Of a DNA stretch of 64,000 bases, positions 23,336 through 55,080 are shown piece after piece. The position numbers were made by a program, and so were the translations under genes. Position 1 is the stretch's first letter. Every line of letters begins with the position of its first letter. Origin of the DNA: Alteromonadaceae bacterium (GTDB lineage: Bacteria; Pseudomonadota; Gammaproteobacteria; Enterobacterales; Alteromonadaceae); NCBI GenBank assembly GCA_016765535.1, contig JAESPQ010000022.1, positions 105,285-169,284 of the forward strand, written 5' to 3'. The notes under the pieces were generated by a model. The model searched no databases. It was not told the origin of the DNA and was given only the letters and a program-made list of their open reading frames with translations.

Positions 23336-23755
23336 ATGGCACAACGCCCAGAATTCAATAGCCGTCAAAAATTCGTAGTATTCCGTGATTTAAAATTCGC
23401 AGGCCGTACGTTCCTAGAGGGTCAAGAGTTCCCTTGGCGTTCGATTGGCTGTAGCGTACGTCGTCTTAATCAGATGTATAAAGCGCGTAAGTTGAACATG
23501 CTAGATGCACAAGAACCCGTGACAGAAGAAAAGCTATTAGCAATGGAACCCGAAGTTAAACCAGTAGTAAAAGAAGTAGTTAAACCTGTAGTAAAAGAAG
23601 TTGTGAAAGAAGTCGTGAAAGAAGTCGTGAAAGAAGTTGTGGACACGTCCGAAGAAGACAAAAAACCCGAGCTTTCTGACGAAGAAAAGAAAGCAAAGAA
23701 AGCGGCTCGACGTAAAGCAGCACGTAAAGCAGCCAAACTAGCCAAAGGGGAGTAA
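23336..23755 (+). CDS. hypothetical protein with (KEVV)n repeat and Lys/Ala-rich tail
   Basis: KEVVKPVVKEVVKEVVKEVVKEVV; KKAKKAARRKAARKAAKLAKGE. Confidence 0.75.
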   Translation: MAQRPEFNSRQKFVVFRDLKFAGRTFLEGQEFPWRSIGCSVRRLNQMYKARKLNMLDAQEPVTEEKLLAMEPEVKPVVKEVVKPVVKEVVKEVVKEVVKEVVDTSEEDKKPELSDEEKKAKKAARRKAARKAAKLAKGE

Positions 23756-46562: not shown

Positions 46563-46591
46563 AGTATAGACTACTATTTACGATACCGCTT
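46563..46591 (-). promoter_or_regulatory. weak family promoter, -10 TATACTTAAA
   Basis: -35 poorly conserved. Confidence 0.45.
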
Positions 46592-48571
46592 GCCCTCCCA
46601 ACCTTCGGCCTCAATCGGACAACCTTTAGCCCACTTCGGAGAGACACACATTAGGTCTTCATATTCCTTAACAGACCCCTCGCCTATCTTGGCTAGACTG
46701 ACCCCTTCATCGTGTACAGTGAACAGGGTTTTATACACACCGCTAGCTTCACAGTTCATAAGCCCTACGGCCATGTAGTCACGGGCTGCGGCTTGTGTGA
46801 AGTTCTCCGTCAGTTTCCCGCCCCAAGTGTCCAGCTCACGCCACTTATTTGTATATGAGCAATGACCATCATAGAAGAGTTTCGGCTGTGGCCCGAATCG
46901 TGTCTTAACTGTACGCACACGGGCGAATGGATAGCATAGCTCTCTACCACTAGGCAGACGGCAATATAAGTGCTTACCGCGCTTCTGGTACGATATTTTC
47001 TTGTAGGTGAACCGCTTCATGGGAACAAGCACAGCCCTGATAGCCGCTTTCTCTACTTTCTCCCACAGGATAGGCACCATTTTGTAACGTTCTTTGTAGC
47101 CTTCAATCGCCTTCTTGCCCAGCGCCGGACTAACTACAATCCCGCCTTGGTCCCAACACGAGGTAACGAACTTACGTGGGCCCATGCCGAAGCCTGCACC
47201 GAGCACCGTAGATTTACCGATGTCACGTTCGAAAGAACCTTTTTTAATCATCTCCTTCTTAACACCATAAATCTGTGCGGCCATACCTTCATACACTTTA
47301 CCGTCGCCGCCAAAATCTTCTAAGCCTACCGGGTCATCTGCTAACCAGAAAATGAACCGTGCTTCAATTTGAGAGTAATCGGCAGATACGAATTTATACC
47401 CCTTGGGGGCACAGATAGCACCACGTAAACACCCGGCCAATACTTCCATTGGGTCGCCGTACTTCTTAAGCAATTTTAGCTTACGCTTCTTAACGACTTT
47501 GATTACTTCTTCCCAGTTCAAATGGTACACAGTTTTACCCGGTTTAGGGAAGTTTTGAATCTGAACACCACGCCCGCCCCAACGTCCCGTACGGGCAATG
47601 TGATACTTGAGGAAGCCATGTAGCCAACCATTGTTATCAACGCCATCGGCCATGCGTACATACTTAGCCGTTGAAGCCTTCGCGGCCTGTGTGCGTAGCT
47701 GTAGAATGGTCCGGCATTTCTTAGGGATGGTCTTCATTGAATCGCCTAGCCACTCCGCGATAACATCCTTCTGCATGTTCGGTATGTCACAGCCATTAGC
47801 GTTTAGCCAATCCTTCACCTTAGCGGTTTGCGTTAGGAACTCGAAGCCACAGTCGGGCCCTGCGAGGCGTTTAGCTTTCTTGTTGGCGTATACTTGGAAT
47901 TGGCCTACCAACTCAAGCGCCGCGCTCACGAGGTCACGGTCAATCGGCAGCCCTAAAACGTTCATCCGCTCGGTCATGAGAAAAACTTCGTGCTCGAAGG
48001 GTGATAGCAGTTCGGACTTGTCCGCGATAGCCATTTGTGTCGCCACATCGTCATCACAATAGTCGATAAACTTCTGGAACTTCTCGGGGTGGTCATGTGG
48101 ACAGCGGAAGCCTTTGCCGTTCGCTTGGGGTTTACTAAACCAGTTAATTAAGATCATACCGCCCGGGTCTTTAGTTACCTTGGCTTTAATCGCCGCTCCG
48201 GCTTTCTCTAACGACGCAGGAAACGCCATAGCGCATGACATAGCCATGGTGTCATAAAACTGTTCTACGGGCACCTCGGGCCACCCAAATTGACGGGTCG
48301 CAACTAAGTTGGTCATCCAGTACTCGAACTCGCTATTGTGAGCACGGATAATCCACCCACACTTGATTAGCGCGAGTAGTACGTGGGGTGCTGATGCTTT
48401 GCTGGTAAAAGGATTCCAGTTATAAACGGTGCGGCCATTGTACGAGAAGCTAACCATCATTATCTCAGTGCTCGGATGCTCTGCGTATTTCATGGCACCG
48501 ACCTTCGTGATGTCCGCTTCTGACCTCGCCTCGTAATCTATATCTAGGAAATGTTTGGGTGTTTCTATCAT
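46574..48571 (-). CDS. family A DNA polymerase
   Basis: exonuclease-like DIDYEA; SADYSQIEAR (motif A), RDIGKSTVLGAGFGMG (motif B), VHDEG (motif C). Confidence 0.95.
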   Translation of the reverse strand: MIETPKHFLDIDYEARSEADITKVGAMKYAEHPSTEIMMVSFSYNGRTVYNWNPFTSKASAPHVLLALIKCGWIIRAHNSEFEYWMTNLVATRQFGWPEVPVEQFYDTMAMSCAMAFPASLEKAGAAIKAKVTKDPGGMILINWFSKPQANGKGFRCPHDHPEKFQKFIDYCDDDVATQMAIADKSELLSPFEHEVFLMTERMNVLGLPIDRDLVSAALELVGQFQVYANKKAKRLAGPDCGFEFLTQTAKVKDWLNANGCDIPNMQKDVIAEWLGDSMKTIPKKCRTILQLRTQAAKASTAKYVRMADGVDNNGWLHGFLKYHIARTGRWGGRGVQIQNFPKPGKTVYHLNWEEVIKVVKKRKLKLLKKYGDPMEVLAGCLRGAICAPKGYKFVSADYSQIEARFIFWLADDPVGLEDFGGDGKVYEGMAAQIYGVKKEMIKKGSFERDIGKSTVLGAGFGMGPRKFVTSCWDQGGIVVSPALGKKAIEGYKERYKMVPILWEKVEKAAIRAVLVPMKRFTYKKISYQKRGKHLYCRLPSGRELCYPFARVRTVKTRFGPQPKLFYDGHCSYTNKWRELDTWGGKLTENFTQAAARDYMAVGLMNCEASGVYKTLFTVHDEGVSLAKIGEGSVKEYEDLMCVSPKWAKGCPIEAEGWEGKRYRK

Positions 48572-48642: not shown

Positions 48643-49410
48643 TTAGCCGATTAGTTTGTTTAACGCTTTCGCTACGTCATCGTACTCGTCTTCGTCGAGT
48701 TCTTTGATTGCTTCAACATCGAATTTGGCTAAAACTTTCTTAGCTTTTTTCTTGCTTGTTTCCGCTACCGCTTCTTTGTAAAGCGACTGTAACTCTTTTT
48801 TCGTGATGCCGTCATCATCATCGTCATCATCGTCATCATCATCGCTATCTGTAGCATAGTCACCGAAGTCACTTTCCGCAGAGGCCGAACCATCAAGACG
48901 TTCACCCGTTTTCTGGAACATAAGGTTATTCAATTCAGCACGAACACCTTTAGATTCATTGTCGAAGCCTTTCATCGTAACGGAGAACAGGAAGTAGTTA
49001 CCTGACACCATCATTTCTTCGAGTTCTTCGGGGTCAATCACACGTTGGCCGGACTTGTCCACGAGCTGTGGAACTTTATAACATGAGGTTGATAACATCC
49101 ACATGCCTTTAGCTTCTTCGCCTACAGTGTAATCTTCGTCTTCAAACATTTCAGTACCACAACGAAGTGGGCTTAAATATTTGCCGCCTAACTTGAACTT
49201 GTCACCGAACTTTTTCTTGCCCGCAGCAAGGATGGCATCGTTAACTTTCTTGGTCATCTTTTTATCTGACTTCGGAAAGAGAATTGCACATTTACCTTTT
49301 GCTGAACCTTCGCCGTCTTCTGGTTCTTTTAGAACACGACAGAACATGAATGTAGAACGACCGGGGTTTTTGTTAGTACCGACGATTACTTTAGCGTTAT
49401 TTTGAGCCAT
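48643..49410 (-). CDS. DUF2815-like (ssDNA-binding-like) protein with acidic run and C-terminal helical module
   Basis: RSTFMFCRVLKEP...AILFPKSDKKM; synteny with DUF2800 and PolA; DSDDDDDDDDDDD linker. Confidence 0.75.
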   Translation of the reverse strand: MAQNNAKVIVGTNKNPGRSTFMFCRVLKEPEDGEGSAKGKCAILFPKSDKKMTKKVNDAILAAGKKKFGDKFKLGGKYLSPLRCGTEMFEDEDYTVGEEAKGMWMLSTSCYKVPQLVDKSGQRVIDPEELEEMMVSGNYFLFSVTMKGFDNESKGVRAELNNLMFQKTGERLDGSASAESDFGDYATDSDDDDDDDDDDDGITKKELQSLYKEAVAETSKKKAKKVLAKFDVEAIKELDEDEYDDVAKALNKLIG

Positions 49411-49555: not shown

Positions 49556-50803
49556 TTATTTTTCGATGAATTCCGCGAACTCGTCAGCGGCAGTGTCACA
49601 GCGGTACATAACGTAGCCATTCTGTGTGCGTGTGGTGGCCTGCTTCATGAATTTGGCTACTTCGTCCTTGTTCCAGCCTTTAAGCGCGTTAACGTACGCC
49701 TCAAGCTCTGTAACCGTCATGATGCGTTCTTCCTTGGCGATGGTTACTTCTTCCGGGCCGATGCCTTTCTTCTGTAGCAGTGGGGTGATTACCGCCATGG
49801 AAACAAGCTTGCGATTGCCCCACTTAGGCGTAACAGTCCAGCCATCAAGAGCCCCGCGGTCTTCTGCCATGAGCCCTAAAGCATGTGCCTTGGCGTCTTG
49901 GTAGAACTTAATTACGCGGTCCCCGTCATCTACGATATGTTGTAGCTGTTCCCGTGACAATTGGTGCATCTCAGGTAGCGTGTTAATCGTAGTCGTTGGG
50001 ATGATGTTAGCCATAACCTTACTGAGCATTTTAGGCTTGTTCTTTAAGTACGCTTCGCAATGCGGTTTAGCCTCACACCAAAAGCATTGGTCCTTGCCCG
50101 GGACTAGTTTGCCCTTCTTCGACACAACCTTTTTAAGTGCAGGTACAAGCGTTTTTTGTTCCCACTTCAACAGGGCTTTAACCGAGACAGTTTGCGAACG
50201 GATTGCGCCGTCTACATGGTTGTCGTTTGGCTGGACCACCGTGACTTTAATCTTCTTGAACTTATACTTTTTATGGAAGCGGTAGAACGCCCCGAGAGCA
50301 TAGATTCTAAGCTGTGAGTTATCGTTCACATCAACGGACATACGGCCATTTTTGTAATCAATAATGTGGAGGGTTCCGCCAAATTCAATAATAGTTATAT
50401 CGGCAGTCCCGCCCATTGGAGCGTTATAGATTTTGGTCAGGTCGTACTTGCGTTCGGGGAACATCTTGACCTTCTTCCCGTTGGCCTTTTTCTTGGTGCG
50501 CTTGTACTCTTCCTTCACGTACTTGATACAGATTCGGGCACAGGCTAATTCATGCTTAGAGATAAGCACTTCGTCCTTCATGCCGTCCTCTAGAATCATA
50601 TCACCTAGAAACGATTTTAGTTTACGCTTTTTAAGCAGCACTTGCTCGACCACGAAATGGACCGCGGTGCCGAGTTGTGATGCTGCGTTATACGTGCGCT
50701 GGGGTATCATCTTGGAGGCTTTCAAGTGCTCTATCAGTTCCACAGAACCGAAACACTTTAGCCAACGAGACGAGCCCGAGGCGGATATACGATGGTGCCC
50801 CAT
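49556..50803 (-). CDS. DUF2800-like PD-(D/E)XK nuclease
   Basis: MGHHRISASGSSRWLKCFGSVEL...GTAVHFVVEQVL...GGTADITIIEFGGTLHIIDYKNGR. Confidence 0.88.
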   Translation of the reverse strand: MGHHRISASGSSRWLKCFGSVELIEHLKASKMIPQRTYNAASQLGTAVHFVVEQVLLKKRKLKSFLGDMILEDGMKDEVLISKHELACARICIKYVKEEYKRTKKKANGKKVKMFPERKYDLTKIYNAPMGGTADITIIEFGGTLHIIDYKNGRMSVDVNDNSQLRIYALGAFYRFHKKYKFKKIKVTVVQPNDNHVDGAIRSQTVSVKALLKWEQKTLVPALKKVVSKKGKLVPGKDQCFWCEAKPHCEAYLKNKPKMLSKVMANIIPTTTINTLPEMHQLSREQLQHIVDDGDRVIKFYQDAKAHALGLMAEDRGALDGWTVTPKWGNRKLVSMAVITPLLQKKGIGPEEVTIAKEERIMTVTELEAYVNALKGWNKDEVAKFMKQATTRTQNGYVMYRCDTAADEFAEFIEK

Positions 50804-50981: not shown

Positions 50982-51098
50982 TTATAGGTCGCGGAAGTCG
51001 TCGTCGTTAGGATGTACGGGGAAGTCTTCATTGGCCCCGTAGTAGTTTTGGAATTCGTCGTCGCAATTAGTGACGTGCTTGATGGCGCGTAAGTTCAT
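50982..51098 (-). CDS. 38-aa acidic small protein (not in ORF track)
   Basis: hand translation MNLRAIKHVTNCDDEFQNYYGANEDFPVHPNDDDFRDL*. Confidence 0.4.
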   Translation of the reverse strand: MNLRAIKHVTNCDDEFQNYYGANEDFPVHPNDDDFRDL

Positions 51099-51576
51099 AC
51101 GGGTGTACTCCCTTCATTACAGCGGGGCCCTTGACAGGGTCATGGACACATACGGTTAACACTACGAAGCCATCGTCATTCAGCGCGTAGCCATAGAGCT
51201 GTACAGGTGCCGAGTTTCCTGCTAAGTGGTAAGTGTGCTTAGGTGGGTATTGGTCCACAACATCCTTAACCATTTTGTCCAGCCCTGCATACCAAAGGTC
51301 GTAGTCTTCTTCATTGGCTAACTGGATGTCGGACAAGTCCACTTCTTCGCCATTGGCACGATAGATGGCCTTAACGATGTATTGAAGTTCGTCGCCGTCC
51401 ATTTCGTAAGACTCGACAATCTTAACGCGTTGAGCACTTAGGCCCGCTAGCATTAGTTTGCTACAGAACTCTTCACGGGCAATGCTAATCTGTTCGGCCA
51501 ACTGTTCCTTAAGGCCCTCGATTATTGCTATTTGGAGTTCGGCATCTACTGAATTACTCTTAGGTGTTAGTTTCAT
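51067..51576 (-). CDS. hypothetical protein
   Basis: 169 aa ORF. Confidence 0.65.
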   Translation of the reverse strand: MKLTPKSNSVDAELQIAIIEGLKEQLAEQISIAREEFCSKLMLAGLSAQRVKIVESYEMDGDELQYIVKAIYRANGEEVDLSDIQLANEEDYDLWYAGLDKMVKDVVDQYPPKHTYHLAGNSAPVQLYGYALNDDGFVVLTVCVHDPVKGPAVMKGVHPYELTRHQARH

Positions 51577-51596: not shown

Positions 51597-51622
51597 AAAA
51601 AAGCCCCCGTGAGAGGAGGCTA
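51597..51622 (-). terminator. terminator after poly-Asp gene
   Basis: minus strand AGCCTCC TCTCAC GGGGGCT TTTTT. Confidence 0.85.
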
Positions 51623-51645: not shown

Positions 51646-52428
51646 TTATTCGTCGTCAACAATTTCAAGTAACGCGTCGTATAAGTTAGCTAAATCGTCT
51701 TCATCTTCTGCAAGTTTTTTCAGACCACGGATAGTGTTTAGACCTGCTGCTTTCAACGCTTTTTCAGTTTGCTTTTTGCTTTCTTTACGAGCGGCGGTAT
51801 ACGCGTCTTTGACTTGGTCAATGGTAACGGGTTCGTCATCGTCGTCATCGTCATCATCATCGTCATCGTCGTCGTCATCGTCGTCGTCATCATCATCATC
51901 GTCGTCGTCATCGTCGTCATCGTCATCATCATCATCGTCGTCGTCATCATCGTCATCGTCATCATCATCGTCGTCGTCGTCATCATCATCGTCATCATCG
52001 TCGTCATCATCATCGTCGTCGTCATCGTTATCCAACAACTCAGCAATTTCTTTCGCAATTTCGGCATAGTCGTCTTCATCCACTTTTTTAGCATTTTTGT
52101 AATCATGCTCGGCTAGAATCGTCATGACTTCTGCTTTACTTGATTCAGCGATTGCGGCTTTAACCAACGCTAAGAATTCTTTCTGCGTCATTTCAACTTC
52201 TGGGGCCGTTTTCTCTTTCTCTTTTTCTTTCAATTTCGCCGCGGCTTTTTCGGCTTTAGCGATAGCTTTCAGCTCTGCTTTAGTTGGCTTCTTGTCAGCC
52301 TTGCCCGATTTAGGTTTCTTATCAACCTTCGCTTCGGGTGGGACCGTTGCGCCCAATGCTTCTGCGATTGCAAATGCTAGAGATTTAATAGACGCTTCAC
52401 ATAATGTTACTGTTTGAACTTTAGCCAT
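51646..52428 (-). CDS. poly-aspartate protein with two helical modules
   Basis: start MAKVQTVTL at 52428; 64 consecutive Asp codons at 51835-52026. Confidence 0.85.
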   Translation of the reverse strand: MAKVQTVTLCEASIKSLAFAIAEALGATVPPEAKVDKKPKSGKADKKPTKAELKAIAKAEKAAAKLKEKEKEKTAPEVEMTQKEFLALVKAAIAESSKAEVMTILAEHDYKNAKKVDEDDYAEIAKEIAELLDNDDDDDDDDDDDDDDDDDDDDDDDDDDDDDDDDDDDDDDDDDDDDDDDDDDDDDDDDDDDDDDDDEPVTIDQVKDAYTAARKESKKQTEKALKAAGLNTIRGLKKLAEDEDDLANLYDALLEIVDDE

Positions 52429-52601
52429 TTGATAATTTCCTTGAGGCCGTAGCCTCGATAATTTAAAGATTAAAAGTACTGTTCGGGTTTTCTTGTTCAC
52501 CCCTTAAGCTTAGGGGAAATTTGCAATAACGCAACTTTTATTTTTGTTTATTTCGGCACGTTCTTTCTCCTGTAAAGTTGTTCGTTCTCGTCATACAAAT
52601 A

Positions 52602-52635: not shown

Positions 52636-55080
52636 TTATAAAATAGTTTGGTATGCTTCTGCTACTTCTTCTTCGCAGCGTTCAAGCTTGCCAATGATCT
52701 TAGCCTTGTGCTTGGCATCCAGCTCCATCTCAGTCGTCTTAGGCATTACCCATGCTGACTGACGCTTACCATTTACACGTAGGCGACCATCTGACGACCC
52801 GGGTACTTTCAATTCGTGGAAGCCCGCGTCGTTGAGCGCATGTTTTAGCTCTGACGTCTTCTTGGATGCTGTGCCGAGAATAGCCTCGTAAGGGCTCACG
52901 TTGCCCCCATTTTGGTGCATCTTTAATAAGAACATTTGGCACAACGATTTCCACGTCATGTAAGTGTACTTATTCAGCATAGACTCGTCATCGTCCAGTT
53001 CATCTTTAACCAATGCTTCGGCCCAATCCAGTGATGAACGCATAACCTGCTTGGTGTACTCAGTCTTCGGCAAGTTGTAAATATCAATGGTAACTATTTT
53101 CATGTGCTTAAAGAAGTACGCGATAGCTGGTATGTTAGCGTCTAGGTACTTAACCAACTTGGCATAGTACTTCGCGTCCCGGGGCATAACTTCACAACGC
53201 AGCATACAGAATCGACGTTCATCCGCTGTTACGAAGAGTGCATCCTCGTGGTTGGTGAAGGCAAGCATATTAGTAACGTTTGGAAGCGTCACATAATCTT
53301 TTTGCATGGCCCTGATTTTTACTGTGTCCTCTGTGATGAATGACTTCAAATTTTCGGTAATCGTTTTACGCGCCTTGGCGGCATACAGCTCGTGAATTAG
53401 TACTAACTGTGAACCAGACTGCCAAGAGTTAAACTTCTCTTCTAGTGGCTGCGTGGTGTTCAATTCATTCACGTTCTTAGCACCGAAGATAGGCTTAATT
53501 ATCTTGGCGGCGATGATTGATTTACCGATACCTTTACGACCTTTAATAATCGGGGCCCACATAATCTTTTTACCGGGGTTCTGGTAATTGTATGCTATGA
53601 ACTCCAACACGATTGCACGTTCATAAGCGTCTGGGAACAAGTACTCAAAATGTTCACGTAACGGCTTAGTCTTGCCCTTCTTCGGTTTCACATCTGACGC
53701 GCAATAAGTGTTAAGCAATTTACTACGTTTATCCAGTGGGTCCCGGAACGTTCTTTCATGCGCCGGGGAGTAGCGACGAGCATCAACCTTCTGCACCGCG
53801 CCAATATCTGTCAAGATTTTGAACGGGGACAATTTGGTATAGCCGAAGTCTTCATTCATCTCAGTGTTCTTGGTGTTGAAACCTTCCGGTTTATACTCCA
53901 ATTCAGCACGTCGATTATAGATAATATTTTCACTGGCAATATAGTAAAAGTCGTCAAACTCCCGGATGTACTTATCAATTACCGGGCCGTCTAAATCGCT
54001 ATCAATATCTAAGCGTTCTTTCGCTTCGGTCTTCTCGACTTTCTGCGTTTTAATCTTAGACTTAATTTCGCTCTTAAGGTCAGCGAGTGAGATGTCCTTC
54101 ACCCGGGCGCTAATCTTTTTAAGCATTGAGTTAAGTTGAATCGGACTCGTCTTGTTGGACTGCACACTCGCAGCGGCCATGGTCAAGATATGGTCAACGT
54201 CACTCTCAAGCGATTCTGATTTTTGAATACGCTCTACGATTTGGTCGTGGGACCATTCCAAGTCATTATGATTACGTGAGTGCGACTTCCATACCGACTT
54301 AACGGTGGTTTTAATCTCGCTCAGTTTCATTGGTGGGCTGAACTTAAGTTCGTTAATCTCCCAGCAAAAATCCATAATCTCTTGAAGCGGTTTGCCCTGA
54401 CCAATTAATGTCCCTGCAACCTTCGCGATATGGTCATTACGGCCGCCTTCCGTCAGCTCCGCAGTAATATCGACCTTCTCGTTTATCGAGTTGTTTAGCT
54501 CCTCCTGCTCCCATAGCAGTTCGGGCGGGACTTCGATTTTCTGTTCTGGGTCAAGTAACGCCTTTTGCTCAGTGGCGTAGTAGTAAAAATGTTTCTCCAT
54601 TTCTCGTGGACAGGCAGGCAGATACATTGGTCGTGATAAAGCTTTGGCTGATGTATCGACGCCTGTACTGCCAAACAGGTAATTAAGATAGATAGTCGTT
54701 TCAACGTGCTTGCCTTTGCTAACAGGTTCGATGTAAGGGATAACCACACGATAGCGGTTGCCCTTGCCTTCCATCTTGTGACTATGCGTGGTGTATATGC
54801 AGTAGCGACACTTGAGCGGCTTAAGGACCTTACGGATACCCTTTGGCGTAATGTTCGAGTTATCTAAATCGAGCGTGGCCCCATAGTAGAACTTGACTGC
54901 ACTCGCGTTACGCTTCTCACCCTTGAAGGATGCGAAAACGAAGTACGGGCCGTCTTTTTTCTTACGACGTACCGCAGTCTCTAAGTTCTTAAACAGTTTA
55001 TCAATGCTAAGTTTCTTTTGCACAATCTTAGAATTGAATACGGATGAACCAAGCGCGATTACTACTTTTTTCTTCGCCAT
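52636..55080 (-). CDS. primase-helicase (AEP-like N-terminus, SF3/VapE-like helicase)
   Basis: GATLDLDNSNITPKG; IIKGRKGIGKSIIAAKI Walker A; LVLIHELYAAKARK; NMLAFTNHEDALFV. Confidence 0.88.
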   Translation of the reverse strand: MAKKKVVIALGSSVFNSKIVQKKLSIDKLFKNLETAVRRKKKDGPYFVFASFKGEKRNASAVKFYYGATLDLDNSNITPKGIRKVLKPLKCRYCIYTTHSHKMEGKGNRYRVVIPYIEPVSKGKHVETTIYLNYLFGSTGVDTSAKALSRPMYLPACPREMEKHFYYYATEQKALLDPEQKIEVPPELLWEQEELNNSINEKVDITAELTEGGRNDHIAKVAGTLIGQGKPLQEIMDFCWEINELKFSPPMKLSEIKTTVKSVWKSHSRNHNDLEWSHDQIVERIQKSESLESDVDHILTMAAASVQSNKTSPIQLNSMLKKISARVKDISLADLKSEIKSKIKTQKVEKTEAKERLDIDSDLDGPVIDKYIREFDDFYYIASENIIYNRRAELEYKPEGFNTKNTEMNEDFGYTKLSPFKILTDIGAVQKVDARRYSPAHERTFRDPLDKRSKLLNTYCASDVKPKKGKTKPLREHFEYLFPDAYERAIVLEFIAYNYQNPGKKIMWAPIIKGRKGIGKSIIAAKIIKPIFGAKNVNELNTTQPLEEKFNSWQSGSQLVLIHELYAAKARKTITENLKSFITEDTVKIRAMQKDYVTLPNVTNMLAFTNHEDALFVTADERRFCMLRCEVMPRDAKYYAKLVKYLDANIPAIAYFFKHMKIVTIDIYNLPKTEYTKQVMRSSLDWAEALVKDELDDDESMLNKYTYMTWKSLCQMFLLKMHQNGGNVSPYEAILGTASKKTSELKHALNDAGFHELKVPGSSDGRLRVNGKRQSAWVMPKTTEMELDAKHKAKIIGKLERCEEEVAEAYQTIL

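Follow-up and report, generated by a model that had tools for sequence, protein, structure and literature searches.

The run of 64 consecutive aspartates encoded in this phage DNA (the window, 64,000 nucleotides, positions 105285-169284 of the 219,479-base contig C21, G000:C21) is real and apparently old, but it belongs to a variant of a known, uncharacterised family whose members freely swap the linker between their domains. Judged by its modules and gene order, the gene can be assigned to the unnamed phage family of the PHROG 7721/408/32389 group, as a two-module member. Sequence comparison identifies the conserved parts of the protein as its helical modules, which a preliminary description of this DNA had missed, and the tract between them as a replaceable linker. 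The gene is laid out as follows:

51646..52428, minus strand: gene for the Asp64 protein, 260 aa with two modules (orthologs by synteny: L189:2215-2781, KPP23 ORF022)
52357..52425, minus strand: N-terminal predicted helix, aa 2-24 (low confidence)
52201..52350, minus strand: basic Lys/Ala/Glu-rich disordered linker, aa 27-76 (net charge about +6)
52027..52200, minus strand: helical module 1, aa 77-134 (by module homology)
51835..52026, minus strand: Asp64 tract, aa 135-198 (64 codons, 32 GAC and 32 GAT, in random order)
51649..51831, minus strand: helical module 2, aa 200-260, four helices (AlphaFold2 pLDDT 87)
51602..51621, minus strand: hairpin resembling a terminator, with a T run, beyond the stop codon (z = -2.2; match at consensus level only)

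The preliminary description had counted 64 aspartates at 51835-52026, all encoded by GAC or GAT and with N-D on their N-terminal side, and our recount agrees with it: there are exactly 64 codons, Asp-Asn directly precedes the run, and neither Glu nor any other residue interrupts it. The order of the codons is indistinguishable from random, with 31 switches between GAC and GAT against 32 expected, a longest repeated codon string of 9 (P = 0.74) and no favoured repeat offset. The tract thus carries no visible remains of expansion in the form of repeat structure; in neighbouring genes GAC:GAT is 98:66. The chance of finding zero Glu is at most 0.002 for transition/transversion ratios up to 10, and 0.04 at a ratio of 20, a rough estimate, based on 32 independent transitions, that inherited codon mixtures would weaken. 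That Glu is missing from 64 codons whose third positions are randomised suggests that Asp has been selected for. Because the synonymous codons are randomised and no Glu occurs, the run appears to be old and to be maintained as protein sequence, as had been proposed, rather than freshly expanded. The gene had also been given a terminator of its own (51597-51622): a hairpin does follow the stop codon at 51602-51621, but it matches at consensus level only, and a scan of the region found terminator-like hairpins no more numerous than in shuffles. The leader before the gene (52429-52540) contains the palindrome CCCCTAAGCTTAAGGGG and, just 5' of the ribosome-binding site, the hairpin GAGGC-UACG-GCCUC.

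Contig C21 consists of about 3.4 tandem units of one phage genome of about 65 kb (contig 1-219479), a repetition that we infer would be expected if the assembled genome is circular or circularly permuted. In a 100-kb self-match the later units are 99.87% identical. The first represents a diverged, co-occurring strain, which differs by 2.5-18% along the genome, with identity falling from about 99% to 82%. Three complete copies of the gene, one of them from the diverged strain, encode 64, 65 and 64 Asp, and the difference amounts to one GAC codon. The diverged strain's copy is not a fully independent confirmation, because the central stretch of the gene, which contains the tract, hardly differs there; recent exchange or a shared consensus could account for this. 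The window contains other repeats: six tandem copies of TTTCAAAAAATACATACGGCCGACT (25/49 bp) and then degenerate 14/28-bp repeats at 1466-1749, which could be an origin or a regulatory array; a pair of 31-bp direct repeats at 2347-2411, close to where a minus-strand ORF ends; and a 12/24-bp tandem repeat at 23554-23641, within ORF 23336-23755.

The gene had been placed between recombination and primase genes, and this holds: the primase lies upstream, the exonuclease, the single-stranded DNA-binding protein (SSB) and PolA lie downstream, and two small ORFs stand in between.

52636..55080, minus strand: primase-helicase (PriCT_1, DUF5906/VapE-like)
51067..51576, minus strand: 169-aa ORF between the tract gene and the exonuclease (no confident family)
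49556..50803, minus strand: DUF2800/PDDEXK exonuclease
48643..49410, minus strand: DUF2815/Enc34-type SSB, T7 gp2.5-like (PF10991 1.4e-25; phrog_112 8.6e-31)
48811..48843, minus strand: Asp11 run in the SSB, aa 190-200 (from the sequence)
48646..48810, minus strand: module at the SSB C terminus, aa 201-255 (40% identical to module 1, tblastn)
46574..48571, minus strand: family A DNA polymerase (PolA)

A third copy of the module in this phage sits behind an 11-Asp run and ends the neighbouring SSB. The closest named relatives are the Pseudomonas phages KPP23 and RSP (exonuclease 40%, primase 38%, SSB 56%). KPP23 ORF022 (BAO53049.1) occupies the same slot, after the primase and before exonuclease-SSB-PolA, and has the same succession of N-terminal segment, linker, module 1, linker and module 2, but its inter-module linker is Gly/Lys-rich, 39 aa long and of net charge 0, with no poly-Asp. 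The other ortholog, L189:2215-2781 (IMGVR_UViG_3300027852_000072), shares the slot, with exonuclease and SSB following it, as well as the arrangement module-Asp run-module. It differs in having 30 Asp, in mixed codons, and a shorter N-terminal part; a longer stretch of this locus (L317) has a related primase upstream. The SSBs of KPP23 and L189 are without the module, unlike that of the window phage. Small proteins of Casjensviridae (Enc34 ORF3, KFS-SE1 gp03, AH2 gp76; phrog_7721) and of Rhodobacter and Roseobacter phages (phrog_32389; RDJL Phi 1 gp46) also share the replication-cluster slot and the module, which follows an N-terminal helix (predicted at low confidence in the Asp64 protein) and a low-complexity linker, but they have one module only, and their linkers are basic or mixed (K/A-, K/E/P- or G/K-rich). 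PHROG holds these one-module versions as 7721, 408 and 32389. The slot and its neighbours are common to KPP23, L189, Enc34, KFS-SE1, AH2, RcRudolph, RcSimone-Hastad and RDJL Phi 1.

Since the direct PHROG match of the Asp64 protein is weak (phrog_408, E 0.38), we place it in this group through a chain formed by L189, KPP23 and L318. The module of about 55 aa and four helices is detectable in it by profile, and its gene has the position between primase and DUF2800 exonuclease-DUF2815 SSB-PolA. At its N terminus a basic linker stands behind a helix (2-24) predicted at low confidence. Net charge of the inter-module linker in the two-module proteins is -66, -35 and 0, and linkers in one-module proteins are basic or mixed; the family therefore needs no polyanion. 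Because in its relatives this place holds fewer Asp or a linker of the usual sort, we consider the Asp64 protein a genuine, if extreme, form of a phage protein already known. The view of the 64-residue polyanion as the conserved essence of the protein is not supported by the orthologs with D30 (L189) or a Gly/Lys linker (KPP23). The earlier concern that homologs might show random tract length in a dispensable gene is borne out for the length, which goes from 0 to 30 to 64, and not for the gene, which is kept in place.

The two modules that flank the tract are similar to each other. In leave-one-out profile tests, module 2 matched its orthologs with 41.6 bits, the SSB module matched the module-1 set with 23.3 bits, and module 1 of L189 matched the module-2 set with 24.2 bits, with 0 of 2000 shuffles as good in each case. 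The test failed for KPP23 module 1 against the module-2 set and for L189 module 1 against other modules 1, so the relation between modules 1 and 2 is weaker than that among modules 2. A profile-profile comparison of two module sets, the first of which contains two bridging sequences, gave 97.5% (E 5.7e-12). Foldseek against viral models returned as top match the 222-aa BFVD entry W8VUN1 (TM 0.88, E 0.02), which equals KPP23 ORF022 in length, and its matches include a 132-aa protein of Burkholderia phage AH2. A search of PDB folds with the module gave no match of known function. Pfam matches to HHH_5 and ribosomal S13, which would have made the module a helix-hairpin-helix, were not significant, and matches of the whole protein to Nop14 and BPS1 (Pfam) and phrog_30618 were discarded as low-complexity. 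No PF10991 or phrog_112 match, and hence no OB fold, was found in the Asp64 protein. Searching the phage collection with the 134 N-terminal residues (tblastn) gave no match; scans of viral and genome contigs with the exonuclease, SSB and primase found nothing close, the primase yielding only distant helicase matches, and 148 related genomes plus 398 genomes of the phylum held only distant matches.

Two observations concern the one-module relatives. RDJL Phi 1 gp46 (L326:4683-5159) belongs to the module family; its label, membrane protein TolA, probably stems from the Lys/Ala-rich linker. Chi-like one-module proteins (L327, L328, L329) differ in their acidic C-terminal ends, which finish on an aliphatic residue (EEEEV, EEDDV, DDEL); the tails of the SSBs of the same phages are much alike (DEDEV, WEDEV, PADGL), and by sequence both look as if they docked on one partner.

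Phages carry long mixed-codon poly-Asp rarely but repeatedly. In 2.9 million viral contigs, a scan for 25 consecutive Asp codons found 86 stretches, among them L189, which turned out to be an ortholog. Distinct mixed-codon ORFs with at least 25 Asp number 65; ten of these have at least 64 Asp, and the longest run is D120. Among the 48 poly-Asp phage ORFs scanned against families, SSB is the sole known function that recurs: phrog_1192 (8) and phrog_15004 (3) are ssDNA-binding families whose sets may overlap, so that SSBs make up to 11 of the 48, and Pfam gp32 confirms L132, L185 and L194. Among 85 neighbouring ORFs that have no long Asp run, the leading families are clamp loader and UvsX (7 each), DnaB is also frequent, and no SSB appears among the best 25 families. 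Phage poly-Asp is thus concentrated in replication loci and, among the proteins encoded there, in SSBs. In L169:8119-8583 (D65) and L178:13177-13500 (D64) the run is followed by Lys/Arg/Gly/Pro-rich, AT-hook-like sequence (RGPGRP, RGRP), and in L120, L132 and L173 by short helical SAP/HeH-like segments. In genome contigs, at least about 80 bacterial or archaeal loci (L203-L282) have at least 40 consecutive Asp codons, the longest among the matches listed being D171 in pure GAT and D161 in mixed codons. We found no literature on long poly-Asp in phages.

Acidic tails in the SSB family bind replication partners. By analogy, the reading that we favour, at about even odds, is that the Asp64 protein serves the SSB/exonuclease machine as an accessory, with Asp64 acting as a disordered polyanionic tether that resembles an SSB acidic tail. 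In such a mechanism the modules of about 55 aa would be docking domains, binding either the SSB's own module or a partner that the SSB binds too, and Asp64 would bind basic DNA-binding surfaces reversibly (the SSB groove, exonuclease, polymerase), tethering them and competing with ssDNA. SSB loading or removal could thereby be helped, or the SSB kept off dsDNA. It speaks for the tether that the same genome fuses D11 and a module to its SSB, that L189 independently has module-D30-module, that poly-Asp phage ORFs include SSBs at the frequency given above and are flanked by many clamp loaders, UvsX and DnaB, that the lack of Glu suggests selection for Asp, that the acidic tail of the Enc34 SSB behaves as described below, and that module homology goes with a conserved slot beside exonuclease-SSB-PolA. 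An SSB-type acidic tail is accordingly the best supported of the functions first suggested, given the D11 and module of the phage's own SSB and the recurrence of such tails in phage SSBs. Against the tether, the neutral linker of KPP23 and the basic or mixed linkers of single-module proteins make the polyanion dispensable for the function of the family; the protein ends IVDDE, so that the tract is internal rather than at the extreme C terminus and has no terminal hydrophobic residue as SSB tails do; and the module resembles no PDB fold of known function.

The serious, main rival is a plain spacer: Asp64 would be a disordered, soluble connection that keeps the modules a given distance apart, its charge having no specific partner, and Asp would be kept because poly-Asp stays extended and soluble. 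That linker charge varies while its position between modules is conserved, that the tract is predicted to be unstructured, and that near-identical copies differ by one codon all fit a spacer. A neutral linker is not expected, however, to remain pure Asp over 64 codons, with no Glu, Asn or Gly, and the recurrence of SSB as the sole known function among phage poly-Asp carriers also speaks against it; we hold the spacer possible, though doubtful. We think it improbable that the tract merely arose by codon slippage where the linker tolerates it, and itself has no function. Such neutral expansion would suit the variable length among relatives, the one-codon indel and the poly-Asp of unrelated prokaryotes (up to D171 among the matches listed), but the codons show complete randomisation with not one change away from Asp, they keep no repeat structure from an expansion, and at transition/transversion ratios up to about 10 the absence of Glu has a low probability (roughly, with 32 independent changes).

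A polyanion could also imitate DNA and so occupy restriction, nucleoid or nuclease proteins of the host. The extreme negative charge of the tract, and nothing else, favours this; relatives in the same slot are without a polyanion, and the place of the gene within a replication cluster, with its module fused to the SSB, points to phage partners. In the full-length predicted model the tract (pLDDT about 43-58) has no secondary structure and no structured surface. We consider such an anti-host role quite unlikely, and found no evidence for the sequestration of host proteins or metals that had also been suggested. Least probable is an artefact of assembly or sequencing: the contig is itself a repeated unit and its copies differ by one codon, but 64, 65 and 64 codons occur in three copies that include a diverged strain, the codon pattern is aperiodic, and D30 is found in an unrelated assembly.

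A wider and more doubtful proposal can be made: phages might repeatedly evolve very long pure-Asp tethers as electrostatic regulators of their ssDNA-binding and annealing machinery, placed here on an SSB (D11-module) and on a two-module mediator (module-D64-module), a class of regulator undescribed before. An odd homopolymer becomes a testable question about the regulation of phage SSBs: a single uncharacterised module is present on the SSB and again on another protein of the same cluster, joined in each by an Asp run. The recurrence of long poly-Asp in SSBs of uncultured phages suggests that the charge and length of tails are evolutionarily tuned in replication and annealing.

These proteins have to be compared with two kinds of SSB tail. 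The gp32-like SSBs of uncultured phages (L132, L185, L194 and others) share long mixed-codon Asp runs within phage replication proteins, but their tails are borne on gp32 OB-fold domains and alternate with Lys-rich stretches, and we found in them no homology to the module. The other kind is the acidic C-terminal tail of T7 gp2.5/Enc34-type SSBs. In crystals, the acidic tail of the Enc34 SSB inserts into the groove of a neighbour, and its removal allows dsDNA binding (PMC5686142). Such tails are short, terminal and attached to an OB-fold protein, whereas Asp64 is internal to a protein without that fold; both are disordered, Asp-rich polyanions encoded in the same kind of gene cluster, and the SSB of the window phage adds a module after its own Asp run.
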